In this document: positions 43,109 to 61,310 of the stretch, piece after piece | How the letters are laid out: each line of letters opens with the position of its first letter | Position numbering within the stretch: position 1 is the stretch's first letter | The notes under the pieces: generated by a model | Told to the model about the DNA's origin: nothing | Seen by the model: the letters and a program-made list of their open reading frames with translations, nothing else | The model's database searches: none | Assembly: GCF_014204545.1 (NCBI RefSeq) | Contig: NZ_JACHLJ010000001.1 | Span: 1,364,001-1,428,000, forward strand | Reading direction: 5' to 3' | DNA length: 64,000 bases | Source: Brevundimonas vesicularis | GTDB lineage: Bacteria > Pseudomonadota > Alphaproteobacteria > Caulobacterales > Caulobacteraceae | Program-made: the position numbers and the translations under genes

Positions 43109-46100
43109 TCAGTTAAGCCATGCCCCGCCCCGCGCAAAGGGCTGGACCCGTCCTATTTCGTCAGACCGCCGGATTTCCGTCTCGACTTCAGCTTCTGGGC
43201 CCCAGCCAAACCCGTCGCCCCACTGCGCCACGGCGATCCGCACCGTGTCGGTCGCACCGTCCGGCAGGTCCGCCGCTGCATAGAACGCCGACGCGCCCTC
43301 CATCTCGATTGTCCGCACCACGACATCGCCACACTGCACACGCAGCCGGAACCGCATCGGATCGACCGCTGTCGGTTCCCCATCCCAGCTGTCGCCGAAC
43401 AGCCGCGCACGCGGCGTCCATCGGATCGCCAGACCCTCGGCCGACGTCTCGACCGTCAGACCAGACGGCGACCACGGCCGATCATGCACGCCCCTCGGCA
43501 CGAACAGGGTCTCGCGGAACCCCGCGCCGCCCGGCGCCGCACCGGCCGGACCTGCGCGACAGACCAGCGGCAACCCCCGCTCGCCCCTCCCGATCTCCGC
43601 GCGCGCCAGCCGGTCGTCCAGAAACACCATGACCGACCCCGCCCCGGCGCCCGCCCGCATCTCCACCTCGGTCCCCTGCTGCCCGCGCAACAGACCCGTC
43701 AGCCGCCACGTCCCCTTCCCGACCAGCAAGGCCGACCGATACTGAACGATCTCCCAGCCCACAGCGGTCTCGACCGCCAGCGCATTGCCGCCGCCCAGCA
43801 CCGCCGCCTCGACCGCGCTTTGCGGCGCCTCGCCCTCGACCCGCACCACCACGGCGTTGGCCTCATCCCAGCGATGCCGCACGCCCGCTCCCAGCGCCTC
43901 GAGCAGCACCCCGACCGTCGCCGGCGTCTCCACATCGCCCCTCGCCGTCAGAGTCTCAGCGGTCGGCCCCGCATGCAGCCGCATCGTCCGCCAGGGCTCG
44001 GCCGCCACGGCGATCAGGGGGCGCGCGTCCGCCTCGCTCCCCATCAAGGGCGGCAGGTCCAATACCTTCAGGAACGGCGCCCCGACCACGACCGGCGTCT
44101 CGCCCCCGCGCCAGACGCCGTCATCCTCGACCGCCCGCCGGGCCGTCACCGGCTCCAACAATGCCGACGGCGTCTCGTCCGCCGTAATCCGCATCACGCG
44201 CCAGTCGTCCGACCGACCCTCCAGCCGCACCCGGTCCGCCGGCTCCAGCCGCAAGGCTTCCAGCGGCCCCAGCGCCAACGTTCTCATCTCCAGGCTCTCG
44301 CCGTCCAGCGCCCGCTGCGCCGCCGCCTTCGCCAGTCCGCTGCCGCACACTTCCGGCAAGTCCAGATCGACCCCGCCCGCCGTCGCCGCCGCATCGTCCG
44401 ACCGCACGACCACCGCCCCGGTCTGATAGTCCGCCGTCTCGTCGATGAACCGCACCCGCGCCTCGCCCGCCCTGGGCTCCAGCGTCCGCGTCGCCGTCTC
44501 CGCCGCCCCGCCATCGGGCAGGGCCAGCGCCTCGCCCGCGATCTCGACCACCGTCTCCACCCGCCCCAGGACGGCGACCTTTCCGTTCCGCTCGGCCGCC
44601 ACCGCGTCAAACGCCGCCAGCAGCGGCTCCAACGCATCGCGCGTCCGCATCGGCCGGTCGATGACGTAGCCGGCCGCCGACCCCTCGACACCCTCGATCG
44701 CCATCTCTTGGGGCGACAACCCGCCTCGCGCCAGCACCGCTTCGATCAGATCGCGCCCGTCGCCGGCCAGCCGTCCGTTCAGCCAATGCCCGGCGCGCCA
44801 CGCCCCTGCGTCGGCCCAGACATCGCCCCGCGAAGGAAACGCCGGATAGGGCCGCGCGTCCCAGCACCAGGCGTCCGCCGCCTCCAGCATTCGCCCGCCA
44901 TAGACATCCGAAACCGGATTGTTCTCAGCCGTCGCATAATGGCCCAGCACCGCTTCCAGCGCCCCCCGCTGCACTGCGTCGTCGCGCGCGCCCGTTGATC
45001 CCGGCGGCAGTCGGCTCTCACTGCTCTTCGCATCCTGAAACAGGTTCGGCGCATTGCCGCCCCGGTCCACCGCCGCGCAGCCGAACTCCGACAGCCGCAC
45101 CGGCTTCATCCCCGGAATCCAGGTCGTCGACACAGCGCTCCGTACCCCGCCCGGCCGATCATGGTGAAGGTTCGACCACCAGCCCTTCAGGTCCTTGGGC
45201 CGAAACACCCAGTCCTCGCCATACGCCCCATCGACGATGGGCGTCCTGACCTGCGCCGCCCGATCCGCCTCGCTGGCGTAGTACCAGTCGAACCCGTCCC
45301 CGCCCGCGACGCCCGCCGCCAGATAGACTGGGTCCGCCGCCCCGCCGAACGTCGCGGCATCGACCCCGCCGTCGCCGGCTCTCCAGTCCGTCAGCGGCGG
45401 ATACCAGTCGATGGACACATGATCGATGTTCGCATCGGCCCACAGCGGATCCAGATGGAACACCGCCTCCCCGCCCGACTGGCGCCCGAAATATTCGCTC
45501 CAGTCCGCCGCATAGGACAGTTTCACGCGCGGCCCGACCACCACCCGACACTCCGCCGCCAGCGCCCGGATTTGATCGACCGCCGGAAAACCTCCGGCCG
45601 CATCCCGCGTCCAGGTCACGCCCCGCATCTCCGACCCGATCAACAGGCCGTCCGCCCTCTCATCCGCCGCGATCCGGGCATAGTGCAGCGCCATCCGCCG
45701 CAAGCCCCAGTCGTCCGGCCCTCCGAACAGCGCCGCGATCTCCGCCGTCGCCCCCGCCCCATCCACGCCCGCCACACGCCCCCGCCATGGATAGCCCGGG
45801 CAGTCCATGAAGACGAACGGATACAGGGTCACCTCCAACCCCCGCGCCTTCAGCTCGCGGATCGCCTGCCGCACGCTCTCATCCGACGGCGTGCCGCCAT
45901 AGGCCGGCGCCCCGTCCACCTGACTGACCTCATAGGCCTCATCGCGCGCCACGCCCGCCACGGACCAGACCAGCGGTTCGGTTGGCTTGTCGCGCCGCTC
46001 CACCCCTGGCCGCACAACGCATTGCCCGGCCCTCAGGTCGCTGCCGAACCACCCGACCACCAGACTGACCCGCTTCAGGTTCGGCAGCTGCGCCTGAAGC

Positions 46101-46846
46101 TGGTCCAGCGACACGACCAGGTCAGCCCCACCCTCGCCATTGTGCACATTCTCCGCCGCCGTCCGCGTCAGCCCCTCGCGCCGCATCACCGCCTCGGTCG
46201 CCAGGGCGAACTCCCCCGCCCCAGGGATCAGACATACCTCCTCAAGCAAGTCCTCAAGCCGCGCCGTCTGCCCCCTCGGCCGCCGGAACACCTCGAAACT
46301 CAGCTGCGGAACCCGATCCCCGAACGGCCCCAGCGGCAGGTCCTCGAACACCACATAGGCCGTCCCGCGATACGCGGGCGCATCCCCCTCCACCGCCGCG
46401 ATCAGCGGATCCGCCGTCTGGTCCTCGCCCCCGCGATGCAGCCGCATCACGACGCCGGTCATGTCCATCAGCCGCCCGTCGGCCCAGACCCGCCCGACCC
46501 CGTCGATCTCGCCTTCGCACAGGGCCACCGCGAAGCTCAGCGAATAGACATAGTCGACCGTCTTCGGCCCGCCCTTGCCCGCCCGCCCTTTCGACTTGCC
46601 TTCCAGGAACCGCGCCGCCCAGATCACCTGACCCGTCACCCGCGCCCGCCCGAAGACGCAGGCCATCGGCGCGCCTTCCGCCGCGCCCTGAACCTTCAGT
46701 GTCTCCAGCCTCGGCCCTACCTGCCGCGCCGGACCCAGCGAGCCCACCACCCGATTGTCGATCGCCCGTCCAAGGGTCGAGCCGATCACCCGCCCGACCG
46801 GCCCGCCGACCGACTGCCCGACCGCGCTCAAAACGACTTGCGCCAT
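43109..46846 (-). CDS. GTA tail hub / baseplate protein with TIM-barrel-like domain (g15)
   Basis: 1,245 aa, the largest GTA protein (RcGTA g15 equivalent), forming the tail tip. N-terminal segment MAQVVLSAVGQSVGGPVGR with a glycine-rich helix and PMACVFGRARVTGQVIWAARF, a central glycosidase-like TIM-barrel domain (DWSEYFGRQSGGEAVFHLDPLWADANIDHVSIDWY region), and phage-tail beta domains. Start ATG 46846 directly follows the TAG of g14, with GGAGGCG as its ribosome site. Probably binds or opens the recipient cell wall; family-level inference. Confidence 0.93.
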   Translation of the reverse strand: MAQVVLSAVGQSVGGPVGRVIGSTLGRAIDNRVVGSLGPARQVGPRLETLKVQGAAEGAPMACVFGRARVTGQVIWAARFLEGKSKGRAGKGGPKTVDYVYSLSFAVALCEGEIDGVGRVWADGRLMDMTGVVMRLHRGGEDQTADPLIAAVEGDAPAYRGTAYVVFEDLPLGPFGDRVPQLSFEVFRRPRGQTARLEDLLEEVCLIPGAGEFALATEAVMRREGLTRTAAENVHNGEGGADLVVSLDQLQAQLPNLKRVSLVVGWFGSDLRAGQCVVRPGVERRDKPTEPLVWSVAGVARDEAYEVSQVDGAPAYGGTPSDESVRQAIRELKARGLEVTLYPFVFMDCPGYPWRGRVAGVDGAGATAEIAALFGGPDDWGLRRMALHYARIAADERADGLLIGSEMRGVTWTRDAAGGFPAVDQIRALAAECRVVVGPRVKLSYAADWSEYFGRQSGGEAVFHLDPLWADANIDHVSIDWYPPLTDWRAGDGGVDAATFGGAADPVYLAAGVAGGDGFDWYYASEADRAAQVRTPIVDGAYGEDWVFRPKDLKGWWSNLHHDRPGGVRSAVSTTWIPGMKPVRLSEFGCAAVDRGGNAPNLFQDAKSSESRLPPGSTGARDDAVQRGALEAVLGHYATAENNPVSDVYGGRMLEAADAWCWDARPYPAFPSRGDVWADAGAWRAGHWLNGRLAGDGRDLIEAVLARGGLSPQEMAIEGVEGSAAGYVIDRPMRTRDALEPLLAAFDAVAAERNGKVAVLGRVETVVEIAGEALALPDGGAAETATRTLEPRAGEARVRFIDETADYQTGAVVVRSDDAAATAGGVDLDLPEVCGSGLAKAAAQRALDGESLEMRTLALGPLEALRLEPADRVRLEGRSDDWRVMRITADETPSALLEPVTARRAVEDDGVWRGGETPVVVGAPFLKVLDLPPLMGSEADARPLIAVAAEPWRTMRLHAGPTAETLTARGDVETPATVGVLLEALGAGVRHRWDEANAVVVRVEGEAPQSAVEAAVLGGGNALAVETAVGWEIVQYRSALLVGKGTWRLTGLLRGQQGTEVEMRAGAGAGSVMVFLDDRLARAEIGRGERGLPLVCRAGPAGAAPGGAGFRETLFVPRGVHDRPWSPSGLTVETSAEGLAIRWTPRARLFGDSWDGEPTAVDPMRFRLRVQCGDVVVRTIEMEGASAFYAAADLPDGATDTVRIAVAQWGDGFGWGPEAEVETEIRRSDEIGRVQPFARGGAWLN

Positions 46847-47596
46847 CTACGCCTCCAAAGATCCTCCCCCGTTCACGGGGGAGGGGGACCACGAAGTGGT
46901 GGAGGGGGCGACCGCACACCCGACCTCTGATCCTGCTTCACCAAGACTCGTGGGACTTTCGCCCCCTACACCACGCGGCACGCGGTCCCCCTCCCCCGCT
47001 TCGCGGTGGAGGACAGGAAACCGGAACACGGCCGCCAGCCGTCTTCGCCACCACACGCCCATCCAGCTCTCGACCACCGCCCGTCCCCAATAGGCGTGGA
47101 TCATCCTCGGCTCCGGTCCGTCGAGGTCGCTCAGAATGGCGCAGTGCTTCACCGCCGCCCCTGGCGACATGCGAAACAGCAACACATCGCCCGCCCGAAT
47201 CTGATCGACCTCAACCGGCGGCATCCACCGCCCCGCCGCATCCAGCAGCGTCTCGCGCCCACCGACCTCGGCCCAGTCGGCCGAATAGGCTGGCAAGACC
47301 TCCGGCTCTTCGCCTGCCACCTCGCGCCACACCCCACGCACCAGCCCCAGGCAGTCCGCGCCCACGCCCTTCATGCTGGCCTGATGCCGATACGGCGTGC
47401 CGAGCCAGGACCGGGCGGCCGCGACGATCGCACAGCCCTTTCCCTCCCCCCCCGGGGGAGGGTGGTCGAGCCGCAGGCGAGACCGGGTGGGGGCGGCCCG
47501 GCATTGCGTGTCCGGTCGCCCTGCCGTCCCCACCCCGTCGCTCCGCGACGACCCTCCCCGTTCCGGGGAGGGAGATGTCGTCGCCCTACCCCTCAC
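46847..47596 (-). CDS. GTA NlpC/P60 peptidase (g14) with repeat-encoded N- and C-terminal extensions
   Basis: Cell-wall peptidase of the GTA tail. The core (about residues 55-195) has IVAAARSWLGTPYRH, catalytic Cys82 in GADCLGLVRG, His151 in KHCAILSD, and MIHAYWG. RcGTA-type g14 proteins are about 150 aa; this frame has 249 codons because residues 1-53 are read from a type B repeat and residues 196-249 from a type A repeat. GTG 47596 overlaps the g13 stop (GTGA); an internal GTG at codon 22 (GGAG seven bases before) also lies in the repeat. No in-frame start exists between the repeat and the core. Stop TAG abuts the g15 ATG. Confidence 0.85.
   Translation of the reverse strand: MRGRATTSPSPERGGSSRSDGVGTAGRPDTQCRAAPTRSRLRLDHPPPGGEGKGCAIVAAARSWLGTPYRHQASMKGVGADCLGLVRGVWREVAGEEPEVLPAYSADWAEVGGRETLLDAAGRWMPPVEVDQIRAGDVLLFRMSPGAAVKHCAILSDLDGPEPRMIHAYWGRAVVESWMGVWWRRRLAAVFRFPVLHREAGEGDRVPRGVGGESPTSLGEAGSEVGCAVAPSTTSWSPSPVNGGGSLEA
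46860..47013. repeat. Type A palindromic repeat, copy 3 (inside g14, 3' end)
   Basis: Left half with GGGGGACCACGAAGTGGTGG, right half with CCCCCTACACCACG and CGGTCCCCCTCCCCCG. It stays open in the g14 frame and encodes its last 50 or so residues. Confidence 0.85.
47441..47573. repeat. Type B palindromic repeat, copy 1 (inside g14, 5' end)
   Basis: GGAGGGTGGTCGAGCCGCAG, then GCGAGACCGGGTGGGG; the right half is CCCCACCCCGTCGCTCCGCG and CCCTCCCCG...GGGGAGGGA. Open in the g14 frame, so it encodes most of its N-terminal extension. A second type B copy lies at 52335. Confidence 0.85.
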
Positions 47597-48243: not shown

Positions 48244-48855
48244 TCAGACCCGAACCTCGATCAGAGGAACCGCCGCCATCCGTCCGGCCTCGAAGCTCTC
48301 CAGCGTGGTCTCGATCCGATCGGAATCGAACCGCACCGGCGTGTCGAACTGAAACCCCGCCGTCACGCTGACACCCGCCTCCGGCGCGCGCTCCAGCGTC
48401 ACCCGCCCGGTCACGAGATCGACCATAAAAGCCGTCGTCTCGACACCGCCCAGCGCCACCCGCACCGATCCCCCGACCGGCTTGGCGATCGGCCGCTCCA
48501 CATCGCCGTAGCGCTTCACCAGATCGAACGCGGTCCGAACCCCGTCGCCCACGCCCAGCGCCTGATCCTCAGACGATACCACCCCACCCGGCGCGCACGA
48601 CTTGAAGTCCGCAAAGTCCTTGAACCTAAACCCGTACAGCCGTCCCCGCCGCGCCTCGAAGAAGGCGACCAACTCGGCCATGTCGTCTAGCGACCTCAGG
48701 TTCGCCCCGATCAGATACCGCCTGCGCCCCAACGCCCAGGGCGTGGACCGCCGCTCGAACCCCGACGCCAGCGTCGTGATCTCCGTCCGACGCTCCACCC
48801 CGCCGGTCGAACCGAACGCCAGCCGCGCAGGCAGGCGCACCTCGTGAAAGGCCAT
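48244..48855 (-). CDS. GTA DUF2460 tail protein (g12)
   Basis: 203 aa, RcGTA g12 equivalent (distal tail / hub component). Begins MAFHEVRLPARLAFGSTGG, with FKDFADFKSC and RFDSDRIETTLE near the C-terminus, all typical. Its start faces away from the DUF805 gene on the other strand, which separates it from g11. Confidence 0.93.
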   Translation of the reverse strand: MAFHEVRLPARLAFGSTGGVERRTEITTLASGFERRSTPWALGRRRYLIGANLRSLDDMAELVAFFEARRGRLYGFRFKDFADFKSCAPGGVVSSEDQALGVGDGVRTAFDLVKRYGDVERPIAKPVGGSVRVALGGVETTAFMVDLVTGRVTLERAPEAGVSVTAGFQFDTPVRFDSDRIETTLESFEAGRMAAVPLIEVRV

Positions 48856-48953
48856 GTCGAACCTGTCCTCTGTTTCACTTGTTCATGGATCGCCGCTCGT
48901 TCATGCTCGCCGCACGGCCAGCTTCGGCCGCATGCCCAAGGGGAGCGACACGT

Positions 48954-49655
48954 TTGCGCGGCGAGATTCTCAGCTACGACACCACCACCGGAATCGGTCT
49001 GATCAGCGGCGACGACGGCGCCCGTTACGACTTCACCTCGGCTGCGCTGCAATCGCCCGCCGTGCCCGCCGCCGGCGTCCGCGTCGACTTCGTCCCCGAA
49101 GGCGCCGCGGCCACCCAGATCCTGATCCTGGCGGGTTCGCCCACCACCACCGGCGTCGCCGGCGGCTATGCCAGCTCGACCTCGACCGCTGTCGCCGGTT
49201 TCGATTGGCAGAAGCTGTTCCTGTCCTTCGAGGGCCGCATCCGCCGCAGCCATTTCTGGATCGGCTGGCTGATCCTGCTGGGCGTCAACGTCGTCATCAG
49301 CTGGATCCCGATCATCAATCTGCTGGGCATCGTGCTGATCTGGCCCAATCTGGCCATTTCGGTGAAGCGTCTGCACGACATGGGCAAGACCGGCTGGCTG
49401 ATCGCCATTCCCTGGGTCGGCTCGGTCGTCGCCTTCTTCGCCGGCTTCGCCATGGTCATCGCCGCCGCCGTCGCCAACGGCTATTCGGAAGACTACTACG
49501 AGGGCAATCCCGCCGCCGTCTTCGCCCTGATGGGCCCGGCCATCGGCCTGTTCGCCATCGCCGGCCTCTCGGGCTTGGCATTCCTGATCTGGATCGGCGT
49601 CGTCGACAGCCAGAAGGGCGAGAACCGCTTCGGCCCGAACCCGAAGGGCGAATAA
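48954..49655 (+). CDS. DUF805 membrane protein with N-terminal cold-shock-like domain, inserted in the GTA cluster
   Basis: About 233 aa from TTG 48954 (AAGGGGAG eight bases upstream); a longer frame from 48879 has no ribosome site. Residues 1-50 (GEILSYDTTTGIGLISGDDGARYDF) look like an OB/cold-shock fold; the rest is DUF805: FLSFEGRIRRSHFWIG, three to four membrane helices, and the ISVKRLHDMGKTGW loop. Function unknown. It is opposite to the GTA genes and has its own terminator, so it is likely expressed independently. Confidence 0.85.
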   Translation: MRGEILSYDTTTGIGLISGDDGARYDFTSAALQSPAVPAAGVRVDFVPEGAAATQILILAGSPTTTGVAGGYASSTSTAVAGFDWQKLFLSFEGRIRRSHFWIGWLILLGVNVVISWIPIINLLGIVLIWPNLAISVKRLHDMGKTGWLIAIPWVGSVVAFFAGFAMVIAAAVANGYSEDYYEGNPAAVFALMGPAIGLFAIAGLSGLAFLIWIGVVDSQKGENRFGPNPKGE

Positions 49656-49679: not shown

Positions 49680-49711
49680 CGCCGCCCCGTCTTCGACGGG
49701 GCGGCGTTTTT
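49680..49711 (+). terminator. Terminator of the DUF805 gene
   Basis: CGCCGCCCCGT-CTTCG-ACGGGGCGGCG followed by TTTTT. Strong on the plus strand. On the minus strand, which the GTA operon must cross, the hairpin is followed by CTGAAG rather than a U-run, so GTA transcription should not be stopped. It overlaps the g11 stop codon. Confidence 0.9.
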
Positions 49712-50234
49712 AAATCCGCCTGGCGCCCAGGCTGACGGCCCGCGCCAGCATCTGGGCGATCTGCGCCTCGGACCGCAGCAGGGCCGGCGCCCCGCCGTCC
49801 ACCGCCACATTGACCGTCACGCCCCCACCGCCGACCGGCCCGATCTCGCCGCCCGTCGTCGGCCGAAATATCTCCGGTCCGCGCTCGCCGACCAGATAGG
49901 CTGCACCGCCCAGCACCGGCCCGCCGTCCGCCCGAGCCCCGCCGAAGCTGGACATCACCGACTGGATCGCCGCGCTCAGCCCGCCGCCCTGCGATCCCGC
50001 CGCCGCATTGACCGCATTCAGCACCGCCCTCGCCAGTTCGGCCAGCGACACCTCCCCGTCCGCCGCCGCCCGCGCCAGCGATCGCGTCAGACTGTCGCCC
50101 GCCCGCCCGAACGCCGCCTCGATGGCGTCCGCCGCCTCCTGCGCCGGCGCCTTCAGCGCCTCCAGCGCCGCCCCGGCTTCGGCCGCTCTCAGCGCGACCT
50201 GATCGATCCCGTCTCGCCCGAACTCATCCGCCAT
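49710..50234 (-). CDS. GTA tail tape measure protein, short (g11)
   Basis: 174 aa, RcGTA g11 equivalent. Helical N-terminal half rich in Ala, then FGGARADGGPVLGGAAYLVGERGPEIFRP, the C-terminal signature of phage tape measures. Short length agrees with the short GTA tail. Its start overlaps the chaperone gene by 11 bases. Confidence 0.88.
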   Translation of the reverse strand: MADEFGRDGIDQVALRAAEAGAALEALKAPAQEAADAIEAAFGRAGDSLTRSLARAAADGEVSLAELARAVLNAVNAAAGSQGGGLSAAIQSVMSSFGGARADGGPVLGGAAYLVGERGPEIFRPTTGGEIGPVGGGGVTVNVAVDGGAPALLRSEAQIAQMLARAVSLGARRI

Positions 50235-50400
50235 CCGGCCAACCCTCCATCAATCGCGCCAGTCCCTCGCGCCCCAGCGGCGCCGTGCCGCGCGGCGCCT
50301 GCGTCAACATCCGCCACTCCTTCAGCGACAGCCGCCAGAACGCCTCCGGCGCCACGCCCAGCGCCGCCGCCAACCGCAACATCTCGCCCCAGGGCGTCAC
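50224..50400 (-). CDS. GTA tail assembly chaperone, rcc01693-like (g10.1)
   Basis: 58 aa starting with GTG 50400: MTPWGEMLRLAAALGVAPEA... with FWRLSLKEWRML, the signature of the Phage_TAC_6 family. Four-base overlap (GTGA) with g10 and 11-base overlap with g11. Works with g10 in tail tube assembly. Confidence 0.9.
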   Translation of the reverse strand: MTPWGEMLRLAAALGVAPEAFWRLSLKEWRMLTQAPRGTAPLGREGLARLMEGWPDGG

Positions 50401-50675
50401 TTGGCGGCCGCCGCAAACGCCTGCGCTACGGCGACCGCCGCCTCGCGCGGATCGACCGCCGCCACCTCCGGCTCTACATCCCCGCCGCCGCGCAACACCG
50501 CCGCCAGCACGATCATCAAATCCCGCGCCGACAGCGTCTTCATTCGCTCGGCGACCGCCGCCATCCCATCGACATCCAGCCCCGTCTCGATCGCCGCCAA
50601 CGCCCCCAGCGTCAGACAGGCCCGACGCCGCGCGCCGCCGATTTCAACGAGCACTTCACCCCGAACGCCGTTCAT
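50397..50675 (-). CDS. GTA tail assembly chaperone-like protein (g10)
   Basis: 92 aa from ATG 50675 (TTGGAGATGTG upstream). Begins MNGVRGEVLVEIGGARRRACLTLGALAAIE, the gene-transfer-agent gp10 family pattern. A longer reading from 50738 lacks a ribosome site. Confidence 0.9.
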   Translation of the reverse strand: MNGVRGEVLVEIGGARRRACLTLGALAAIETGLDVDGMAAVAERMKTLSARDLMIVLAAVLRGGGDVEPEVAAVDPREAAVAVAQAFAAAAK

Positions 50676-50703
50676 CACATCTCCAAGTTCGATTTCGTGA
50701 GCG

Positions 50704-51180: not shown

Positions 51181-51340
51181 ATCCTCCCTCGTGAAGCGCA
51201 GCGAAACGGGGGAGGGGGACCACGAAGTGGTGGAGGGGGCGGACACGCGCTCCATCGCCTGATTTCCACACCCGGTCCGCTTTTCGCCCCCTCCACCATG
51301 CTACGCATGGTCCCCCTCCCCCGCTGTCGCGGAGGAGGAT
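51181..51340. repeat. Type A palindromic repeat, copy 4 (g8-g9)
   Basis: GGGGGACCACGAAGTGGTGG left core and CCCCCTCCACCATGCTACGC right core, bounded by ATCCTCC and GGAGGAGGAT. The g8 stop codon lies at its right border. Confidence 0.85.
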
Positions 51341-52306: not shown

Positions 52307-52334
52307 GGCAATCTCCATTAAAAAAATCAGACCT

Positions 52335-52487: not shown

Positions 52488-53726
52488 TCAGCTCGCACTG
52501 AACTTCATCACCTTGATCGCGTCGAAGTTCTGCACCCCGCCGCCCACGCGCTTGGTCGTGTAGAACAGCACATAGGGCTTGGCCGAATAGGGATCGCGCA
52601 GCACCCGCACCCCCGCGCGATCAACGATCAAATACCCCCGCTGAAAGTCCCCGAACGCGATGGACAGGCTGCCCGCCGCCACATCCGGCATGGTCTCGAT
52701 CTCGGTGACCGGATAGCCGAGCAGGCTCGCCGTCTCGGCCAACCGCGTCGCCGGCTGCCAGATGTAGTTGCCGTCCGCGTCCTTGAACTTGCGCACGGCC
52801 GAGACCGTCTTGCGGTTCATCACGAACCGGCCGCTCGGACGATATTGGGCCTTGGGCGCATAGATCAGGTCGATCAGGCGATCCGCCGGACTGGTCGCCG
52901 CAAAGCCGCCCGCCGCGCCCGAGGCGACATAGCCGATCTGACCCCAGACCTGGCCCGCGTCCGCCACGGTCGGATAGGACAGCAGACCCTTGGGCTTGTT
53001 CACCCCGTCGCCATTGACGAAGGCGGCGGTCTCCTGCGCCGCAAAGGCGTCCTCGACCTCGGCCGCCAGCCATTCGTCCAGATCGACCATGGCGTCGTCC
53101 AGCAACGCCTGCGTCGCCGCCGGATTGGCGTAGAGATCGGCCGACGGAAACTCCAGCAGGGCCAGGGTCGCCGGGTCCGTCTCGGGCCGTGCGGCCGTCT
53201 CCGCCACCCAGCCGCAGGCCACGCCCGCCGTCGAAACCGGCTTTCTGAACACGCCGGCCGCCACGGTGCGCACCGTGGCGATCTCGCGCATCGGACTGGC
53301 CGCCATCAGACGCCGCTCGATGGCCCGTTCGGTCTCGTACGGCACCACATAGCCGCCCGAGGTCGCCCCGCCCGACAGGCCCGCCTTGACCTCCAGACCG
53401 CTGGCCAAATGAGGGGACTGTCCCGTCTTCAGATAGCCGTCCCACGCCGCCTTCGCTTCGGGCGCAGACGCCGGCTCGGCCGGTTCGCCGCCGATCGCCG
53501 GGCGACGGCTCTGGCTCATCACCCGGTCCAGCCGCGCCTGGGCCGAGGCGACCGCCTGGTCGATGCGCGCCACCTTCTCCTCCAGCAGCACATCGGCCGC
53601 CGCCTTCTTCTCGATCTCGCCCAGCCGGACGTCGTTCGCCCCTTTGAACGCCTCGAACGCCGCCATCATCTCGCGCACGACATCGCGCGCCTCGGGCTGG
53701 CCCGAAGCCTGTTTGGTCTCTTTCAT
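52488..53726 (-). CDS. GTA HK97-type major capsid protein (g5)
   Basis: 412 aa. Start ATG 53726 with AGGAG. N-terminal charged coiled-coil scaffold domain (about residues 1-100), processed by g4 in the family, then HK97 fold with GLSGGATSGGYVVPYETERAIERR, and C-terminal KPYVLFYTTKRVGGGVQNFDAIKVMKFS. Forms the GTA head. Confidence 0.95.
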   Translation of the reverse strand: MKETKQASGQPEARDVVREMMAAFEAFKGANDVRLGEIEKKAAADVLLEEKVARIDQAVASAQARLDRVMSQSRRPAIGGEPAEPASAPEAKAAWDGYLKTGQSPHLASGLEVKAGLSGGATSGGYVVPYETERAIERRLMAASPMREIATVRTVAAGVFRKPVSTAGVACGWVAETAARPETDPATLALLEFPSADLYANPAATQALLDDAMVDLDEWLAAEVEDAFAAQETAAFVNGDGVNKPKGLLSYPTVADAGQVWGQIGYVASGAAGGFAATSPADRLIDLIYAPKAQYRPSGRFVMNRKTVSAVRKFKDADGNYIWQPATRLAETASLLGYPVTEIETMPDVAAGSLSIAFGDFQRGYLIVDRAGVRVLRDPYSAKPYVLFYTTKRVGGGVQNFDAIKVMKFSAS

Positions 53727-55105: not shown

Positions 55106-55339
55106 GTGTTTGGATTGTTCTTTCATCCCAAACGATCCGACGCCGTGCGCGCAGTGGCCGTGCGTGTCGTGCCGGGTCAACATTGCGGAGAGACCACGGA
55201 TGCGCCTCCGGCCGTCGTCGTCTCCAAGTCTCTGCCCGACCCTCAAGCCAAACTGAACCGCGCCCTCGGCAGCATCGGAAACGTCACCAACGACACTTCC
55301 CACAGCTCGACCGCGCTCAGCACGCGCAGCCGTCCCTGA
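55106..55339 (+). CDS. Possible small protein, partly antisense to g4
   Basis: 77 codons from GTG 55106, with a good AAGGGGAG site five bases upstream. The first half (FGLFFHPKRSDAVRAVAVRVV) looks plausible as protein; the second half is antisense to the g4 3' end across the 18-base repeat. No family recognised; it may be a fragment left by a rearrangement. Confidence 0.25.
   Translation: MFGLFFHPKRSDAVRAVAVRVVPGQHCGETTDAPPAVVVSKSLPDPQAKLNRALGSIGNVTNDTSHSSTALSTRSRP
55240..55257. repeat. 18-base direct repeat, copy 2
   Basis: Identical to 55028-55045. On the minus strand it encodes the last residues (FSLA) and stop of the prohead protease. Confidence 0.85.
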
Positions 55340-55650
55340 CGCCGGGCCCGCGCCGTGCGGTAGCCGATCGACAGCCCATCCAGCGCCCCGGCCCGGCTCA
55401 ACGCCCCGGCGAACCGCGCCTCGGCCGACCAGTCCTCGATCCGGCCGCGCACGAACAGGCCGCGCGCATCCTCGATGATCTGCTCCCAGACCCCGACCGG
55501 CGCCCGCGCATCGTGCTGGTTCAGCATCCGCACCCCCTCAGCGCCCGTCTTGGCCAGACTGTCCGCAAACGCCCCCGCCTGCACCACGTCCCCGTTCAGA
55601 TCCGCCACGCCCCACAGCGAGGCGTAGCCTTCGATCGCCAAGGTGCTCAT
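55243..55650 (-). CDS. GTA HK97-type prohead protease (g4)
   Basis: 135 aa serine protease (peptidase U35) that matures the capsid. IEGYASLWGVADLNGDVVQAGAF at the start, catalytic His in MLNQHD, Ser in GLSIGYRT, and ELWEVSLVTFPM. A little shorter than most; the end is formed by an 18-base direct repeat. Four-base overlap with g3.5. Confidence 0.92.
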   Translation of the reverse strand: MSTLAIEGYASLWGVADLNGDVVQAGAFADSLAKTGAEGVRMLNQHDARAPVGVWEQIIEDARGLFVRGRIEDWSAEARFAGALSRAGALDGLSIGYRTARARRQGRLRVLSAVELWEVSLVTFPMLPRARFSLA

Positions 55651-55877
55651 TTCCCCTCCAACCGCCGCTCAATCCGCTCCACCGCCGCCGCCGTCGCCTC
55701 GCCCTGGACCTCCAACCGCGCCAGCCGTTCGGCGACCAGCCTCTGTTCCCCGACCCGCTGCTCCAGCGTCGCGATCCGCGCCGCGGCGCCCCCCGCCCAG
55801 ACCAGGCCGCCCACCGTCTGCACGACCACGGCGATCAGCAACGCCGTCGGCACGCGCCGGATTTGATGTTCGGTCAC
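55647..55877 (-). CDS. GTA small membrane/coiled-coil protein (g3.5 position)
   Basis: 76 aa from GTG 55877 in GTGA overlap with the portal stop; its own stop overlaps the g4 ATG. N-terminal hydrophobic helix (TALLIAVVVQTVGGLVWAG), then a charged coiled coil to the end. Position matches the small g3.5 gene of RcGTA. Function unknown. Confidence 0.8.
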   Translation of the reverse strand: MTEHQIRRVPTALLIAVVVQTVGGLVWAGGAAARIATLEQRVGEQRLVAERLARLEVQGEATAAAVERIERRLEGK

Positions 55878-57046
55878 GCCCCCACCCCCGCCATCCGCCG
55901 ACGCTCTTCGTCGGTCAGGAAGCTCGCCCCCTCCAGCCGCGCCCACAGGGCGTCCCGCTCGGGGTGCAACGCCGCCACCGCCTCCAGGTCCGCCCGCACC
56001 TCGCACCCGGCGAACCGCTCGCCCAGCCAGCCCGTCATCGCCCCCGCCGCCTTCCGCACCAGCGGGATCACCGTCTGTCGCCAGAAGGCCGCATTGGCCT
56101 CGCGGTAGTTGGCGTAGGTCGCGTCCCCCGGTATCCCCAGCAGCTGCGGCGGCACCCCGAACGCCAGGGCGATCTCGCGCGCCGCCGCATGTTTGCCGGC
56201 CGTGAAATCCATCTCCGCCGGCGTCAGGCTCAGCGGCTTCCAGTCCATCCCGCCTTCCAGCAGGATCGGCCGCCCGGCGTTCGTCGCCCCGGCATAGACG
56301 TTCGACAGCTGATCCTTCAGCGCCTCGAACTGCCCGTCCGTCAGCCGCTCGCCGTTGCGCGCCCCATAGACCAGCGCCCCCGACGGCCGCGCCGCATTGT
56401 CCAGCAGGGCCTTGTTCCAGGCGCCCGCCGCATTGTGCGCATCGACCCCCTGCGCCGCCGCCTCCATCGGCGACAGCCCGTACCAGTCGTCCAGCGGGTG
56501 CCACAGCTTCAGGTGCATCACCGGCGCCCAGCCGTCCGCCGCCCGCCCGATCCGAACCGACCGTCCGTCCACGGAATAATCCCACGCCTCGGGCCAGCCC
56601 GACCGGCCGGGCACCACCTTCACCCGGTCCGACCGCAGCGCCCACAGCTCGTCCGGCGCCCCGTCCCCGTCCGCATCTCCGGTCGCCTCGACATAGGCGT
56701 TGCCCGACACTTGCAGCGCGCCATAGACCGCCTCCATCAGCTCCGCCCCCGACTGCTCGGGATTGGGCCGTCGGATCAGTTTCGCCAGCGGATGCGCCTC
56801 GTCGCGCGCCCCGTCCACGAACACCGCGAACGGCGCAGCCGCCGCCGCCTCGGCGATCATGCGGATGCAGCGATAGGCCACCGCATTCTTCTGATACCCC
56901 TCGCGCGCCAGGCTGGCGTAGTCGTTGGGCGTCCACCTGGGCCGCCCCACCCCCGACAAGGCGATCACCCCGCCCGCCCGGCTCTCCTTGCCTTCAGGCG
57001 CGCCCACGCGCCCCGCCTGGCCGAACGGCCACCGGATCGAAACCAT
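55874..57046 (-). CDS. GTA portal protein, HK97 family (g3)
   Basis: 390 aa, dodecameric DNA channel of the head. YQKNAVAYRCIRMIAEAAA, PLAKLIRRPNPEQSG, GNAYVEA, and IALAFGVPPQLLGIPGDATYANYREANAAFW are classic portal motifs. Preceded by a type A repeat that separates it from the spike/acyltransferase module. Confidence 0.95.
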   Translation of the reverse strand: MVSIRWPFGQAGRVGAPEGKESRAGGVIALSGVGRPRWTPNDYASLAREGYQKNAVAYRCIRMIAEAAAAAPFAVFVDGARDEAHPLAKLIRRPNPEQSGAELMEAVYGALQVSGNAYVEATGDADGDGAPDELWALRSDRVKVVPGRSGWPEAWDYSVDGRSVRIGRAADGWAPVMHLKLWHPLDDWYGLSPMEAAAQGVDAHNAAGAWNKALLDNAARPSGALVYGARNGERLTDGQFEALKDQLSNVYAGATNAGRPILLEGGMDWKPLSLTPAEMDFTAGKHAAAREIALAFGVPPQLLGIPGDATYANYREANAAFWRQTVIPLVRKAAGAMTGWLGERFAGCEVRADLEAVAALHPERDALWARLEGASFLTDEERRRMAGVGA

Positions 57047-57064: not shown

Positions 57065-57220
57065 TCCTCCCCCGCCAGCGGGGGAGGGGGACCGCCAAGC
57101 GGTGGAGGGGGCGACGGCGCGCGCTCTGCCAACCGTCTCACACCCAACCCGTTTCCGCCCCCTCCACCCCGCTTCGCGCGGTCCCCCTCCCCCGTGCCGC
57201 TACACGGCTCGGGGGAGGAT
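57065..57220. repeat. Type A' palindromic repeat, full copy (portal-acyltransferase)
   Basis: TCCTCCCCCGCCAGCGGGGG, then GGACCGCCAAGCGGTGGAGG; right half CCCCCTCCACCCCGCTTCGC, GGTCCCCCTCCCCC and GGGGGAGGAT. The acyltransferase stop and last codons lie in its right end. Confidence 0.85.
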
Positions 57221-58240
57221 CTTCAAAAGCGGTCGCTCCACCCACAGATGCACCGCAACCCCCGCCACCAGACTGGCGATCACGGTCAGCCCCACCACCG
57301 CATCCCCCGGCAGGGCGACCATCCCGCTCTCAAACAGCCTTCCCAGCGCCCGGATGACCAGCACATGGACCAGATAGATCGAATAGGACGCATCCCCCAT
57401 GAAGGCCGCCGCCCGCCCCAGCCGCCCCGGCGCCCGATCCACCCGCTCCATCCTCACCACGCCGAACACCAGCAGGGCGCTGGGCAACCCCCAGACCGCT
57501 GCCCGCCTCAACCCGTTCCACGGATCGTTCAGCGCCCGCACATCGTCGATGCCGCCATAGCCGACGACCAGGCCCAACCCGAAGCCGAGCATCGCCAGAG
57601 CGACCGCCCACACCCCAAGCCGACGCGGCGCCGACCGCCACACCCAGGCGATCCCGACGCCCAACAGAAACTCCAGAATGATCGGCGCGCCCCAGAACCT
57701 CAGCACCGGCGCCGCCACGACCAATCCGGCCGCCAGCATCGCCGCATAGACCCCGACCAGCCCCCAGCCGACCCGCCGGCCGCCCGCTATGGCCAGGCCG
57801 AACCCGGCGTAGAACAGCATTTCGAAACACAGGGTCCACCCCGGTCCCAGCGCCGGAAACGTCATCTCCAGCCCGCTGAACGGCCAGAACAGGAAGGTCG
57901 CCACAGCCACCTCTGGGCTCAGCGTCCCGCCCCGCGCCATGCCGATCAGGATCGGCAGCCACAGCAGCCAGTAGATCGGCGCCACCCGTCGAAACCGCCG
58001 CCACAGGAAGGCCCCGGTCGCGCCCATGCCCGTCTGACCCTGTGTCGTCGTGGCGATGATGAAGCCGCTGATGACGAAGAACACGTCCACGCCGACGGCG
58101 CCGAAGTTCTCCAGCGCCCCGCTGGACAGCACCGTCTCCAGCCCCAGCCGCGTCCCCGCAAGGTCCACGGCATGCGTCACGACCACCGCCGTCGCCGCCG
58201 CGAACCGCAGCGCCTGCACCCCGTAAAGCCGCTCCCCCAT
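57200..58240 (-). CDS. Acyltransferase 3 (OafA-like O-acyltransferase) inside the GTA cluster
   Basis: 346 aa with about ten membrane helices. N-terminal LYGVQALRFAAATAVVVTHA carries the conserved R and H of the family; GVDVFFVISGFII, FLWRRFRRVAPIYWL, and ASYSIYLVHVLVI follow. Such enzymes O-acetylate surface or exported polysaccharides. Its last residues ILPRAV and TAG come from the adjoining repeat. It lies 38 bases after the SGNH spike gene on the same strand. It is not part of the RcGTA main set; a role in surface modification is inferred. Confidence 0.9.
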   Translation of the reverse strand: MGERLYGVQALRFAAATAVVVTHAVDLAGTRLGLETVLSSGALENFGAVGVDVFFVISGFIIATTTQGQTGMGATGAFLWRRFRRVAPIYWLLWLPILIGMARGGTLSPEVAVATFLFWPFSGLEMTFPALGPGWTLCFEMLFYAGFGLAIAGGRRVGWGLVGVYAAMLAAGLVVAAPVLRFWGAPIILEFLLGVGIAWVWRSAPRRLGVWAVALAMLGFGLGLVVGYGGIDDVRALNDPWNGLRRAAVWGLPSALLVFGVVRMERVDRAPGRLGRAAAFMGDASYSIYLVHVLVIRALGRLFESGMVALPGDAVVGLTVIASLVAGVAVHLWVERPLLKILPRAV

Positions 58241-58278: not shown

Positions 58279-59406
58279 TCAGATCATCACCCGCGCCCGC
58301 ACCGCCTCGGCGATCCTCGCCTGTCCCGCCGCATTGGGATGGACGGAATCGAACATCAGCCCGCCGGCGAAGCTGCCGCCGAACAGTGCCGTCCCGTCGA
58401 TGGGCGCCGCCAGCCCTCGCGTCGCCGCCACCTCGAACACCGCGTCCCGCAACGCGGCTTGCGCGGCATAGCTCGCCTTGCCCTGGGCCGGGTCCGACGG
58501 ACATCCGGTCATCAGCAGCACGTCCCCCGTCGTCAGGCACCGATCCACCAGCGTCCCCAGCCCGGCCTTGTAGGTCGCGACCGCCGTCCCCGCATTCCAG
58601 TCGTTGATCGTCAGACACACGACCGACAGATCAGCCGCCGCCGCCGGGATCGACCCATAGGCCCGATACGGCTGGTCCGTCGTGATCCAGTCCGCGATCC
58701 GAGCCCCGCCCCACCCGGCGTTGATCACCCGCGCCCGCTTCACATCTGACCGCCACGCGGCCCCGCCCGCGATGAACACCGCACCGCCCGAGGACCAGCG
58801 CACGCTCACCGGCCCGGTCGTCTCGGGAAAGGCTACGGTCGTGACCTCCATCGACGCCGCCTTGGTGGTGTTCACCGTCGCCCGCACCACGCCGTCGGTC
58901 TCGACCGTCAGCACCCCCAGCGCCGTGTTCGTTACGGCCCACAGATCGAACCGATCCACTGGCCGGTCCGGCTGAAAGCTCCAAACGCCCGTCGATGAGG
59001 CCGCGCCCGAGAACAGCTTGCCGCCCATCCCGGTCAGGGCGTTGACGCCCCACCCGGCGCCCAGGGTCACGCGTGGATCATAGGCGGAATAGCCTCCGCC
59101 GGCCCCATCAGCCGCCCCGGCGCCCGCGACCGACGCCGCCGAGGCCGGCAGGCCCCGCCCGCTCATCATAGCCGCCAGCCGCTGGGGCCAGGCGCTCGCC
59201 CGACCGTTCGGCGTCCAGCCGCCGGAGACCGCGCCATAGCCTTGGGTCACGCTGTCGCCGATGCACAGCAGCCGCGCCTCGCGCCCGCCCGCCTGCATCG
59301 TCCTGACCGCCGCCGACCAGACGGGCAGATCGGGCACGGCGAACCGCGACCTCCCCAGCACCCCGCCCGGCGCCGCCGTCGCCGCTCCGATCTCGAGACC
59401 CGACAT
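58279..59406 (-). CDS. SGNH/GDSL hydrolase, probable GTA head-spike protein (GhsB-like)
   Basis: 375 aa from ATG 59406, which shares its A with the spike-base stop. N-terminal 60 residues precede the SGNH block I LLCIGDSVTQGYG (nucleophile Ser); then NAGWGGARIADW (Gly block), TINDWN (Asn block) and DSVHPNAAGQ (catalytic Asp/His). An intervening beta-rich segment (about 130-220) is typical of sugar-binding esterases. No signal peptide, which suits a particle protein rather than a secreted enzyme. It likely deacylates a capsule or S-layer-associated polysaccharide during adsorption. Confidence 0.8.
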   Translation of the reverse strand: MSGLEIGAATAAPGGVLGRSRFAVPDLPVWSAAVRTMQAGGREARLLCIGDSVTQGYGAVSGGWTPNGRASAWPQRLAAMMSGRGLPASAASVAGAGAADGAGGGYSAYDPRVTLGAGWGVNALTGMGGKLFSGAASSTGVWSFQPDRPVDRFDLWAVTNTALGVLTVETDGVVRATVNTTKAASMEVTTVAFPETTGPVSVRWSSGGAVFIAGGAAWRSDVKRARVINAGWGGARIADWITTDQPYRAYGSIPAAAADLSVVCLTINDWNAGTAVATYKAGLGTLVDRCLTTGDVLLMTGCPSDPAQGKASYAAQAALRDAVFEVAATRGLAAPIDGTALFGGSFAGGLMFDSVHPNAAGQARIAEAVRARVMI

Positions 59407-59693
59407 CAGTCGAAGGCCGCCACGATCTGCGTCGCCGTCGTCCCGGTCGCCAGCACCCGGCGCACCTGCACCGGCAACCATCCCACCGGATGGTTGGCGA
59501 AGGTCACGGCGTCGCCATCCTCGGCGCCCACCGTCAGCACACGGACATTGCCCGCCCCGCCGACATACAGCGCCTTGGCGTAGGCCGTCAGATCGACCGT
59601 ATCGCTGGGCGTGACCGCCGCCGCGCGCCTCGCCGGCCCGCCCGCATCGCGCCCATGGTTCAACAATCCGTCCCGCTCGGGAATGGCCGGCAT
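59406..59693 (-). CDS. GTA spike base protein, RCAP_rcc01079 family (GhsA-like)
   Basis: 95 aa from ATG 59693 (AGGAGAGACGAT upstream). The core PSDTVDLTAYAKALYVGGAG, VRVLTVGAEDGDAVTF, and VGWLPVQVRRVLATGTTAT is the pattern of spike base proteins known from the R. capsulatus GTA head spike. Encoded directly before the SGNH protein, with one-base overlap. In R. capsulatus the spike genes lie away from the main cluster; here they sit between terminase and portal. Confidence 0.85.
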   Translation of the reverse strand: MPAIPERDGLLNHGRDAGGPARRAAAVTPSDTVDLTAYAKALYVGGAGNVRVLTVGAEDGDAVTFANHPVGWLPVQVRRVLATGTTATQIVAAFD

Positions 59694-59725: not shown

Positions 59726-60898
59726 CTAAAGCCCCCGCAATCGCGGTCCCGCCGACTGCGGCCCCAGCATCAGCCGCGTGATCGCCCACACCAGGGCGTC
59801 GGCCCGATCCGGGCTGGGTCCGCCCTCGCTGCCCAGCGCCAGCATCTCTTCCTCCAGCGCCGGGAAGGCGTCGCAGTGAACCACGCGCCCCTGTTCATAG
59901 AGCAGGGCCACCGGCTCGGCCCGCGCCGCCTTGGACCGCGAAGCGTGGACCATCTCGATCCGGCAAGGACAGGCGCTGATGGCCAGGACCGAGCGCACCA
60001 TGTCGCCGCCCTGATTGCTCTCGGCGACTACCTCATGCGCGCCGAATTCGTGTGCGGCCGCGCTGACCGCCCCGCCCCAGCTCTGCGGCGAGCGCCCCTG
60101 CACCGTCCGGTCCGCCAGCACGAAGGCCTGGCGATCCTTTCGTCCCACCACAACGATGCCGCAGGCGTCTCCGGTCGCGGTCGCGGGCGGATCGACCGCC
60201 ACGACGATCCGGTCCAGTTCGACCGGCCGCGCGCCCCTGGCCCGTTTCAGGTCCGCGATGTGGAACAGGGCGCCCTCGCCCTCGACCACCACGCCTTCCA
60301 GCTCCTGGGCCGCCAGCCGCGTCCCGCCATAGACGTCGTTCAGATGCGCCAGAAAGCCGGGCGACAGGTTCTGCGCGTTCAGCGCCGTCGCCGCCCGTTC
60401 CGTCACCGTTCCGGCCTCGGCCATCAACCGCCTCAGCGCCGGGATCGGCCGGGGCGTCGTGGTCACCGCCAGCAGCGGCGAGGCCCCCAGCCGCAGTCCG
60501 AACCTCAGGTTCGACAGCACCATCTCCGGCCGTCGCCAGGCGCAGAATTCGTCTGCCCAGGCCGCGTGAAACTGCGGCCCCCTCAGACTGTCGGGATCCT
60601 CGGCCGAAAACGCATAGGCCGCCGACTGATTGCCCCACACCAGCCGACGCCGCCCCGCCTCCCAGCGCGGCCGATCGCCCGGCTCCGCCAGCGCCTTGAT
60701 GCCCGACGCCCCCTCCACCATCACCTCGCGCACGTCGTGCAGGGCGGGGCCGACCAGGGCCAGGGTGATGCCGGGCAGCTTTCGCGCCATCTTGTCGATC
60801 CAGACGGACCCGGCGAACGTCTTTCCCGATCCCCGGCCGCCCAGCAGCAGCCAGGTCTTCAGGTCGTCATCCGTTGGCGAACACTGATGCTTCGCCAC
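59726..60898 (-). CDS. GTA large terminase (g2)
   Basis: DNA-packaging motor. About 390 aa from GTG 60898. ATPase domain: Walker A LLLGGRGSGKTFAG, Walker B-like AAWADEFCAWRRPE, and coupling TTTPRPIPALR. C-terminal RNase H-like nuclease: VAVDPPATATGD, VAESNQGGDMVRSVL, DRADALVWAITRLML. The start is uncertain because the 5' end overlaps the TerS-like gene out of frame by about 30 bases and no clear ribosome site exists; a reading from 61045 would overlap by 180. Confidence 0.92.
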   Translation of the reverse strand: MAKHQCSPTDDDLKTWLLLGGRGSGKTFAGSVWIDKMARKLPGITLALVGPALHDVREVMVEGASGIKALAEPGDRPRWEAGRRRLVWGNQSAAYAFSAEDPDSLRGPQFHAAWADEFCAWRRPEMVLSNLRFGLRLGASPLLAVTTTPRPIPALRRLMAEAGTVTERAATALNAQNLSPGFLAHLNDVYGGTRLAAQELEGVVVEGEGALFHIADLKRARGARPVELDRIVVAVDPPATATGDACGIVVVGRKDRQAFVLADRTVQGRSPQSWGGAVSAAAHEFGAHEVVAESNQGGDMVRSVLAISACPCRIEMVHASRSKAARAEPVALLYEQGRVVHCDAFPALEEEMLALGSEGGPSPDRADALVWAITRLMLGPQSAGPRLRGL

Positions 60899-61310
60899 CC
60901 GACAATGGCTGCGATGCAGCCTTAGCTCGCGCCCTTTCAGCTGCCTCAGCGTTCTTCTCTTCCAGAATCCGATCAAGCCGCTCGTGCTCGACGACCAGTT
61001 CCTGTCGGATTCGCTCGTCCTCGGCGGGGTCGTAGGTTCGTCCACCCATCTCGTCCTCTTCGTTGTCGCTCAGGCACAGCAGCCGCATCGCCTCGACCGC
61101 CTTGGCCGACCGCGAGATCACCCCGATCTGGCGTGCGACCTTTTCGGCGACGGCGGCGTCCTTGACGTCCGTCTCACAGACGCTCTTGGCCGTCTCCTCG
61201 ATCTTGGCCTTCATCATCAGGAACAGGGGCTCCATCCACCCTGCGCAGGACGCAGCCGTCTCGCGCGCGCCGCCGCAGCCGCCCTCTCCGTCTTCCTGAT
61301 TTCCCGTCAT
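60867..61310 (-). CDS. GTA small-terminase-like protein (g1)
   Basis: 147 aa from ATG 61310; an upstream start at 61403 (178 aa) is also open. Helical, acidic middle part (WMEPLFLMMKAKIEETAKSV, VARQIGVISRSAKAVEAMRLL) and a charged C-terminal coiled coil. Position and character match RcGTA g1, which recruits DNA for packaging without sequence specificity. First gene of the cluster; its promoter should lie in the 115 bases upstream. Confidence 0.8.
   Translation of the reverse strand: MTGNQEDGEGGCGGARETAASCAGWMEPLFLMMKAKIEETAKSVCETDVKDAAVAEKVARQIGVISRSAKAVEAMRLLCLSDNEEDEMGGRTYDPAEDERIRQELVVEHERLDRILEEKNAEAAERARAKAASQPLSGGEASVFANG

Follow-up and report, generated by a model that had tools for sequence, protein, structure and literature searches.

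The head spikes of RcGTA, the gene transfer agent (GTA) of Rhodobacter capsulatus, rest on the base protein Rcc01079, in which residues 2-10 of Rcc01080 are described to dock (PMC7296036). The spike fibre and the tail fibre are both reported to bind the capsule, and the spike genes adjoin, judged from their gene numbers, the capsule genes rcc01081-01086 (PMC10218006); they are described as lying outside the main gene cluster (PMC13420450). The GTA of Caulobacter crescentus (CcGTA) is encoded by a cluster of the same kind, with gtaQS described between the large terminase and the portal and with an antisense gene, CCNA_02873 (PMC9632790, PMC11150451); the word 'spike' does not occur in the main text of either paper. 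Here we analyse a stretch of 64,000 nucleotides of Brevundimonas vesicularis (the window; contig NZ_JACHLJ010000001.1, positions 1,364,001 to 1,428,000), the minus strand of which, from 43109 to about 61400, is by its sequence an RcGTA-type gene cluster of the vesicularis group of Brevundimonas with g2 to g15 in order. Between the large terminase and the portal it carries genes for a spike base, an SGNH protein and a membrane O-acyltransferase of the Acyl_transf_3 family (AT3).

Comparison of this interval across the genus showed that the terminase-portal junction of the Brevundimonas GTA is a spike-exchange slot, in which the base is constant and the next gene changes. The account that we favour, with moderate confidence, is that of a vertically kept RcGTA-type GTA with a constant base and an exchangeable spike, which in the window would be a glycan O-acetylesterase accompanied by an AT3 acting on the glycan of the producer, in a manner resembling seroconversion by phages. 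The swap slot and the paired acyltransferase are the new points; a search of open-licence literature found no paper describing either of them in a GTA.

The slot between terminase and portal

A spike base and an SGNH protein between the large terminase and the portal had been proposed in the original prediction, as a layout unlike that of R. capsulatus, and the matches to NF048002, PDB 6tb9 and PF13472 (Table 1) bear this out, base and SGNH genes being inside the main cluster and those of RcGTA outside it (PMC13420450). NF048002 has no other match in this genome. The locus resembles RcGTA in the family of the base, in that the protein encoded right after the base probably docks with its N-terminus (PMC7296036, PMC10218006), and in that the spike adjoins a predicted glycan-modifying gene as the RcGTA spike adjoins capsule genes (PMC10218006). 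It differs in that the spike is an SGNH protein, for which no match to NF048003 (Rcc01080, GTA_spike_fiber) was found up to E 0.1. The AT3 gene, located 38 nt after the SGNH gene and in the GTA direction, had been missed in the original prediction, as had the antisense genes, the exchange of spikes in the slot, the canonical fibre in other Brevundimonas and the decay of some related clusters.

Among 289 genomes drawn across the Alphaproteobacteria, the NF048002 base was found in 8 and the megatron (g15) at E<=1e-50 in 46, 28 of them over the cut-off. Base and megatron were less than 30 kb apart on one contig only in the genome of the window, in line with the earlier claim that the spike module is built into the main cluster. 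They are hundreds of kb apart in two other genomes (G365 and G498) and on different contigs, where nearness is not strictly excluded, in three (G597, G599 and G607), and two more (G456 and G500) have a base and no megatron match. In a second draw of 299 genomes from the family, the base was present in 40, of which 30, including that of the window, belong to the genus. We fetched the surroundings of the base in the other 39 genomes, as well as those of a second base in G180. The portal follows the base in all 29 main loci of the same genus, and g2 precedes it in 25 of them; in the remaining four the contig starts at the base (L125) or no g2 was found (L127, L136 and L137). The latter three, with base and portal and no g2 at the usual place, are GTA clusters that lost or replaced their large terminase. 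No GTA portal was found after the second base of G180 (L147) or after the bases of the ten genomes outside the genus, two of which have a distant g2 match upstream of the base (L141) or distant g2, portal and g5 matches in order ahead of it (L150). Similarly, in two IMG/VR contigs (L215 and L221) the base comes after g5 of a more distant GTA-like cluster, so that a base in a GTA-like cluster is not confined to the terminase-portal slot. Most Caulobacter loci in our set have a gap of about 500-730 nt between g2 and portal and no base match. In our set of 131 Brevundimonas genomes the base was recognised in 43 and not in the other 88.

What lies between base and portal varies considerably. In counts that mix overlapping named and unnamed loci (distinct sequences: 20 for SGNH, two B. 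huaxiensis fragments left out, and 16 for AT3), a broad cluster of SGNH proteins that includes the one of the window (SGNH-A-like) occupies the slot in 30 loci, 23 with AT3 behind it and 7 without, and a second cluster, type B, occupies it in 10. Single different proteins are found in L118, L132, L134 and L137, and the slot of L119 holds low-GC3 open reading frames (ORFs). Three type B proteins were scanned against NCBIfam, and two of them matched NF048003 (3.6e-33 and 2.4e-23, in L135 and L047; the third, at 0.0055, was below the cut-off), which indicates that an Rcc01080-type fibre fills the same slot elsewhere in Brevundimonas. A search of PDB sequences with one type B spike gave a weak best hit (0.038). 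The proteins of L132 and L134 match PF13472 over the cut-off and that of L118 below it (1.2e-5), and that of L137 resembles a lectin-like family, also below the cut-off.

On a tree of the large terminase we count at least 8 changes between presence and absence of the base, slightly too many because the contigs of L002, L024 and L026 stop short of the portal and these loci were for that reason alone labelled 'none'. The spike type changes 7 times among base-bearing loci, where 6 is the minimum possible for 7 types. For instance, L118, L119 and L132 form one group of closely related g2 with three different slot contents, and L134, which has another SGNH protein, branches just outside the vesicularis group. 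Since the base stays while the spike changes, the slot behaves as a cassette. The interval was thus compared across Brevundimonas and the Caulobacteraceae, as had been suggested, with the outcome that the base is kept and the spike is variable, and the swapping of spikes in the same place fits the earlier notion of a locally adapted receptor-binding module.

The SGNH protein and its neighbour AT3

The catalytic residues of SGNH hydrolases (Ser, Gly, Asn, His) fall in conserved blocks of the slot protein: Asp51-Ser52, Asn268, Asp353 and His356, together with the candidate glycines 231 and 234, are invariant in the 20 distinct homologues. An AlphaFold2 model (pLDDT 63, pTM 0.71; residues 1-29 below pLDDT 50) shows an SGNH fold into which a beta region is inserted, with strands within residues 112-217. 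The peptidoglycan O-acetylesterase Ape1 matches the model over nearly its full length (Foldseek 2.5e-12; VIA-align Z 23.5 over 301 residues at 3.4 A for 4k3u), and at Z 18-23 the catalytic part of the model resembles many esterases and acylhydrolases; among the matches listed, only Ape1 entries align over at least 300 residues. The likeness in fold to Ape1 (PDB 4k3u, 8gkd) extends to the region inserted in the SGNH fold, with a sequence identity of just 10-18%. The structural matches thus point to an ester hydrolase, best to an O-acetylesterase, and give no substrate, and the protein is probably an O-acetylesterase with an inserted beta domain. Named viral structural matches include minor tail proteins, tail fibres and hydrolases. 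At the sequence level the best hit in the PDB is weak (9otv, 0.0014), and 9 phage records match at 26-31% identity.

SGNH esterases as receptor-binding proteins are described for Klebsiella prophages, where they are active esterases, and for G7C gp63.1 (PMC13123978), and an SGNH spike or tail-fibre esterase is described for Pectobacterium phage PP99 (PMC6989608). These are tail proteins, whereas the protein of the window would sit on the GTA capsid, on an Rcc01079-type base. With Ape1 as its best full-length structural match, the protein could instead be a peptidoglycan O-acetylesterase that aids wall crossing, with AT3 acetylating the peptidoglycan of the producer. We consider this rather improbable, as the position of a head spike suits initial contact with the outer surface, RcGTA spikes are reported to bind the capsule (PMC10218006), and many other glycan or ester hydrolases match the catalytic domain (Z 18-23), a shared fold that gives no substrate.

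Many slot proteins start with alternating hydrophobic residues, like the docking peptide of Rcc01080, for instance MLELGVGLAEAGL, MSVSLGLDLDGLVLGG and MGLSLGHPLS; the SGNH protein of the window starts with MSGLEIGAA. We counted hydrophobic-small-hydrophobic triplets in residues 2-20 of the first member of each of 13 clusters of slot proteins at 40% identity (L003, L130 and L119 left out). The mean was 1.92, against 0.61 for inner stretches and 0.80 for shuffles (0 of 2000 draws each), for a pattern that we settled on only once we had seen the N-termini. For the full set of 43 clusters, in which genes beside bases in viral contigs are included, it was 1.35, against 0.58 and 0.66, respectively (0 of 2000). 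A simpler score over 34 non-clustered sequences gave a clearer excess over inner stretches (2.35 versus a mean of 1.85 and a maximum of 2.12). In the viral contigs L192, L200, L210, L219 and L232 (base near position 6001 or 2050) an Rcc01079-like base is followed by a large protein with an L-x-L start, such as MGSLGLSLSLS, MLGLGLGLAEA and MSIGLGIGN. A base with a docking-peptide spike may be a general phage device. The spike base has relatives in 77 phage records, all below 60% identity.

The AT3 protein has, besides its PF01757 match, the two motifs described for this family, R/K-X10-H and RxxR (PMC9558356), as R12-X10-H23 and R82-x-x-R85, both invariant in 16 distinct homologues. It is present at >=66% identity in 20 of the 131 genus genomes (in G356 and G308 partially), 19 of which have the spike base within about 2 kb, and in all 23 slot loci with AT3 it is placed after SGNH-A. 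All 24 IMG/VR contigs with a base that is >=84% identical (from the best 80 of 282) carry SGNH, AT3 and GTA genes. The association of close AT3 relatives with base and SGNH is thus nearly exclusive in the genus, and 2 partial matches were the only close AT3 relatives among 50,697 phage records. One genome, G131, has a second AT3 copy elsewhere (L152, 51% identity). Its neighbours, by eye TonB receptors, two halogenase-like proteins, a LacI-type regulator and a GalE-like protein, gave no clear clue to the substrate.

The two genes are adjacent and conserved together, and their products might be the two halves of a periplasmic O-acyltransferase, as in PatA/PatB and in AT3-SGNH fusions, in which case the SGNH protein would not be a spike. 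The AT3-SGNH fusion is described as the commonest AT3 fusion, and it is suggested that an AT3-only protein (WecH) could work with a soluble SGNH protein (PatB) (PMC9558356). We see little probability in this, given that the N-terminus of the SGNH protein (MSGLEIGAATAAPGG) has no signal peptide or membrane helix by eye (no predictor was run) and is unordered in the model, that the start of its gene overlaps the stop codon of the spike-base gene, that an SGNH protein follows the base without AT3 in the 7 SGNH-A-like loci and in L118, L132 and L134, and that the named viral structural matches include tail fibres, minor tail proteins and hydrolases.

The reading that we favour would work as follows. 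The constant base gene would encode a pentamer of the Rcc01079 type on the capsid vertices, and the next gene whichever spike docks in it via a short N-terminal peptide of alternating hydrophobic residues. In the vesicularis group the SGNH spike would bind and unmask an O-acetylated surface glycan of the recipient, removing acyl groups during the search of the tail for its receptor. AT3 would be made along with the particle in the producing cell and would acylate one of that cell's own glycans. In the simplest case this would be the glycan on which the spike acts, so that the surfaces of producer and recipient would differ. A close parallel to AT3 is Oac of phage Sf6, likewise an AT3-only membrane O-acyltransferase from a phage-like element, which acetylates the O-antigen, whereupon further Sf6 cannot act on it (PMC9558356). 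Unlike Sf6 the element of the window is not self-spreading, the masking of a receptor is here a proposal, and the spike would remove acyl groups, whereas the endorhamnosidase of Sf6 is described as hindered by acetylation (PMC9558356).

Several observations weigh against this proposal. The SGNH model has middling confidence (pLDDT 63), 1yzf, an acylhydrolase of a single domain, is level with Ape1 in Z (22.6, over 180 residues), and the AlphaFold model of the spike base (pLDDT 48.6) was too poor and was not used. In B. huaxiensis L003 (11512-12646) the SGNH frame is split near residue 186, for which a sequencing error, decay and phase switching are all possible. As to docking, besides the late choice of the triplet pattern, the simpler score of 2.35 is only slightly in excess of the shuffle mean of 2.01, with a maximum of 2.38 in 200 shuffles. 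One triplet is found in the representative of the window's type and none in some slot proteins (e.g. that of L023), so that docking is supported for the slot overall and, for the SGNH protein of the window, plausible. Seven of the 30 SGNH-A-like loci lack AT3, which the esterase therefore does not require; the genome contains a further seven PF01757 matches, so that acylation need not concern the spike. Finally, AT3 is truncated in G356, and in G258, the single AT3-bearing genome without a nearby base, a deletion removes the base and joins g2 to SGNH, with AT3 left open.

An open AT3 without a base would also fit an incidental passenger in a permissive gap, unrelated to the spike, and so would the presence of antisense non-GTA genes in the cluster and the place of AT3 among the faster-changing genes (dN/dS 0.28-0.47 against six relatives). 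We hold this to be unlikely: AT3 lies in the GTA direction 38 nt after SGNH, follows SGNH-A in 23 of 23 AT3 loci and has the base next to it in 19 of the 20 genus genomes.

GTA identity and further features of the cluster

The nearest named relatives of the terminase are from Brevundimonas huaxiensis, B. vesicularis and Brevundimonas sp. ASV9 (95-96% identity), and it is 97% identical to that of the unclassified 'Alpha proteobacterium L41A'. Profile searches, which had been proposed for each protein, identified g2, portal, g4, g5, g6, g8, g9, g10, g12, g13, g14 and g15, with weak or sub-cut-off matches for g7, g10.1 and g11 (Table 1). The canonical order that had been claimed for g1-g15 therefore stands for g2-g15; the ORF in the g1 position gave no significant match in family profile searches, so that its label is positional only. 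It has tblastn matches in many Brevundimonas loci and a dN/dS of 0.27-0.53 against six relatives. No Pfam match was found for g3.5. The g13 protein, short as it is, was matched over 212-215 residues in 4 relatives.

Table 1. Features of the GTA cluster in the window, in the order of the minus strand
Feature	Coordinates	Strand	Basis
ORF in g1 position, 178 aa, possible small terminase	60867..61403	-	position
g2 large terminase, conserved part	59726..60925	-	PF03237 1.3e-27, PF17289 4.9e-23; ORF extends to 61045, start codon not fixed
Head-spike base, Rcc01079 family	59406..59693	-	NF048002 2.2e-25; PDB 6tb9 'Head spike base Rcc01079' 1.2e-7
SGNH protein, putative spike, 375 aa	58279..59406	-	PF13472 2.6e-15; start overlaps base stop by 1 nt (TGATG)
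Acyl_transf_3 (AT3) membrane O-acyltransferase	57200..58240	-	PF01757 1.2e-23; phrog_3333 O-acetyltransferase 2.6e-43
g3 portal	55874..57046	-	PF04860 2.8e-85; TIGR01537
g3.5 small ORF	55647..55877	-	position; dN/dS 0.05-0.17 vs 5 relatives
g4 prohead protease	55243..55650	-	TIGR01543 7.1e-29
Two antisense ORFs between g4 and g5	53893-54219, 54226-55044	+	no GTA family match
g5 major capsid protein (HK97)	52488..53726	-	TIGR01554 3.5e-115
g6 head-tail connector	52043..52306	-	TIGR01560, PF05135
g7 head completion protein	51750..52046	-	position; PF05521 weak, 0.031, below cut-off
g8 tail completion, gp17-type	51340..51753	-	PF11367 5.1e-26 on ORF 51340-51957
g9 major tail protein	50764..51174	-	PF06199 8.7e-45
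g10 (Phage_TAC_11)	50397..50675	-	PF11836 GTA-gp10 1.8e-12 on ORF 50397-50738
g10.1	50224..50400	-	TIGR02216 6.4e-10, below cut-off
g11 short tape measure	49710..50234	-	position; NF058675 9.5e-4, far below cut-off
DUF805 membrane protein gene between g11 and g12	48879..49655	+ (antisense)	PF05656 2.4e-16
g12 distal tail protein	48244..48855	-	TIGR02217; DUF2460
g13 baseplate hub (phiJL001 type), short, 215 aa	47593..48240	-	TIGR02218 8.4e-69
g14 NlpC/P60 peptidase	46847..47425	-	TIGR02219 6.6e-57; C-terminal extension from dispersed repeat
g15 megatron (GTA_TIM)	43109..46846	-	NF048004 1369 bits, cut-off 800
GC-rich dispersed repeats in junctions	46862-47000, 47433-47568, 51193-51325, 52328-52463, 53750-53803, 57065-57196		

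The earlier view that the core frames are intact agrees with our check of 19 frames of the cluster, which showed no inner stop (the listed g10 frame is open), and with the low dN/dS values, calculated according to Nei-Gojobori with our own script against the relatives L006, L007, L008, L131, L013 and L009. Over these six, values were 0.14-0.30 for the spike base, 0.14-0.41 for SGNH and 0.09-0.16 for the portal (over only 162 residues in L009); the capsid protein gave 0.09-0.20 against four relatives, and g12-g15 gave 0.12-0.30 against L156-L159 (g15 over just 163 residues in L157). Nearly all computed values were below 0.6 and most below 0.5, indicating purifying selection. The highest were those of g7 (0.75 against L006 and 0.52 against L008), of the g1-position ORF (0.53) and, against the decayed L009, of DUF805 (0.56) and g15 (0.62, over 182 residues). 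One stop in the relative was met within the alignments of g14 with L156 and L157 and of g15 with L159, the stops of g14 sitting behind its conserved part. Decay of the window's own cluster is thus not supported. Some related clusters do decay, with deletions in L154 and L155 and the portal directly before g11 in L009 and L012.

Such deletions, and the fact that IMG/VR files clusters of this type as viral contigs, would be expected of a prophage or decaying prophage. We regard this as extremely improbable and reject it for several reasons. The megatron is far over the cut-off of NF048004; g2 matches at E<=1e-40 were found in 120 of the 131 Brevundimonas genomes (weaker ones may be prophages); in 53 of 80 named loci the cluster has a CxxCxxCC gene as its upstream flank, in the same orientation; and dN/dS is low. 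As had been stated in the original prediction, there is no integrase: the PF00589 search gave 0 matches in the window and 9 elsewhere in the genome, the nearest about 549 kb away on the same contig. Neither an integrase nor a dN/dS near 1, both named there among the findings that would refute a GTA, was thus encountered for the window. Listed as viruses, the IMG/VR contigs L160-L183 and L240-L261 (5.6-18 kb) represent GTA clusters of Brevundimonas, and IMGVR_UViG_2864934081_000004 is identical to the window in every matched protein.

The tight overlaps of the genes, also part of the earlier description, are interrupted by antisense genes in two places, g4-g5 and g11-g12, and by gaps filled with repeats. 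In 40 of the 43 named loci with both g11 and g12 (all except L079, L080 and L081, which gave no match) the DUF805 gene is antisense between the two, which indicates that such insertions are old and tolerated. It is a non-GTA gene kept in the GTA cluster across Brevundimonas and Caulobacter. For the 272-aa ORF between g4 and g5 (dN/dS 0.34-0.48 against 5 relatives; no clear family) a relative is found antisense at the same place in 18 of 60 named loci, and the C. crescentus GTA locus is described as holding an antisense gene as well, CCNA_02873 (PMC9632790). A dispersed repeat extends the C-terminal end of g14, which carries repeat-derived ends; by analogy with terGTA in C. crescentus the repeats might be terminators that need antitermination. 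An Rfam scan of 41000-64000 gave nothing at gathering scores, and no tRNA was found in the window. Outside the window the same genome encodes a DUF2793 protein (G000:C1:148258-148518, a 493-aa frame). This domain occurs in the RcGTA tail fibre Rcc00171, and we take the protein to be a candidate for an ectopic GTA tail fibre.

Implications of an exchangeable spike

If the particle assembles and the spike genes are expressed together, the pair of esterase and acyltransferase could, by analogy with phages, keep released particles off producers and debris; its purpose might alternatively be the marking of favoured recipients. A wider and more tentative possibility is that the slot works as a cassette locus for receptor binding, by which a domesticated, non-infectious particle switches its target glycan again and again. 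AT3 and SGNH would then be a matched write/erase pair that keeps particles from producers or directs them to cells of a certain acetylation state.

The usual picture of a GTA is that of a conserved core to which scattered accessory genes belong. A constant base that receives unrelated spikes suggests phage-like evolution of the receptor-binding part, though the particle does not spread itself. The slot makes the question of who receives GTA DNA, and why, open to single gene deletions in laboratory strains, and with the pair of AT3 and esterase self-exclusion in GTA producers can be tested concretely.

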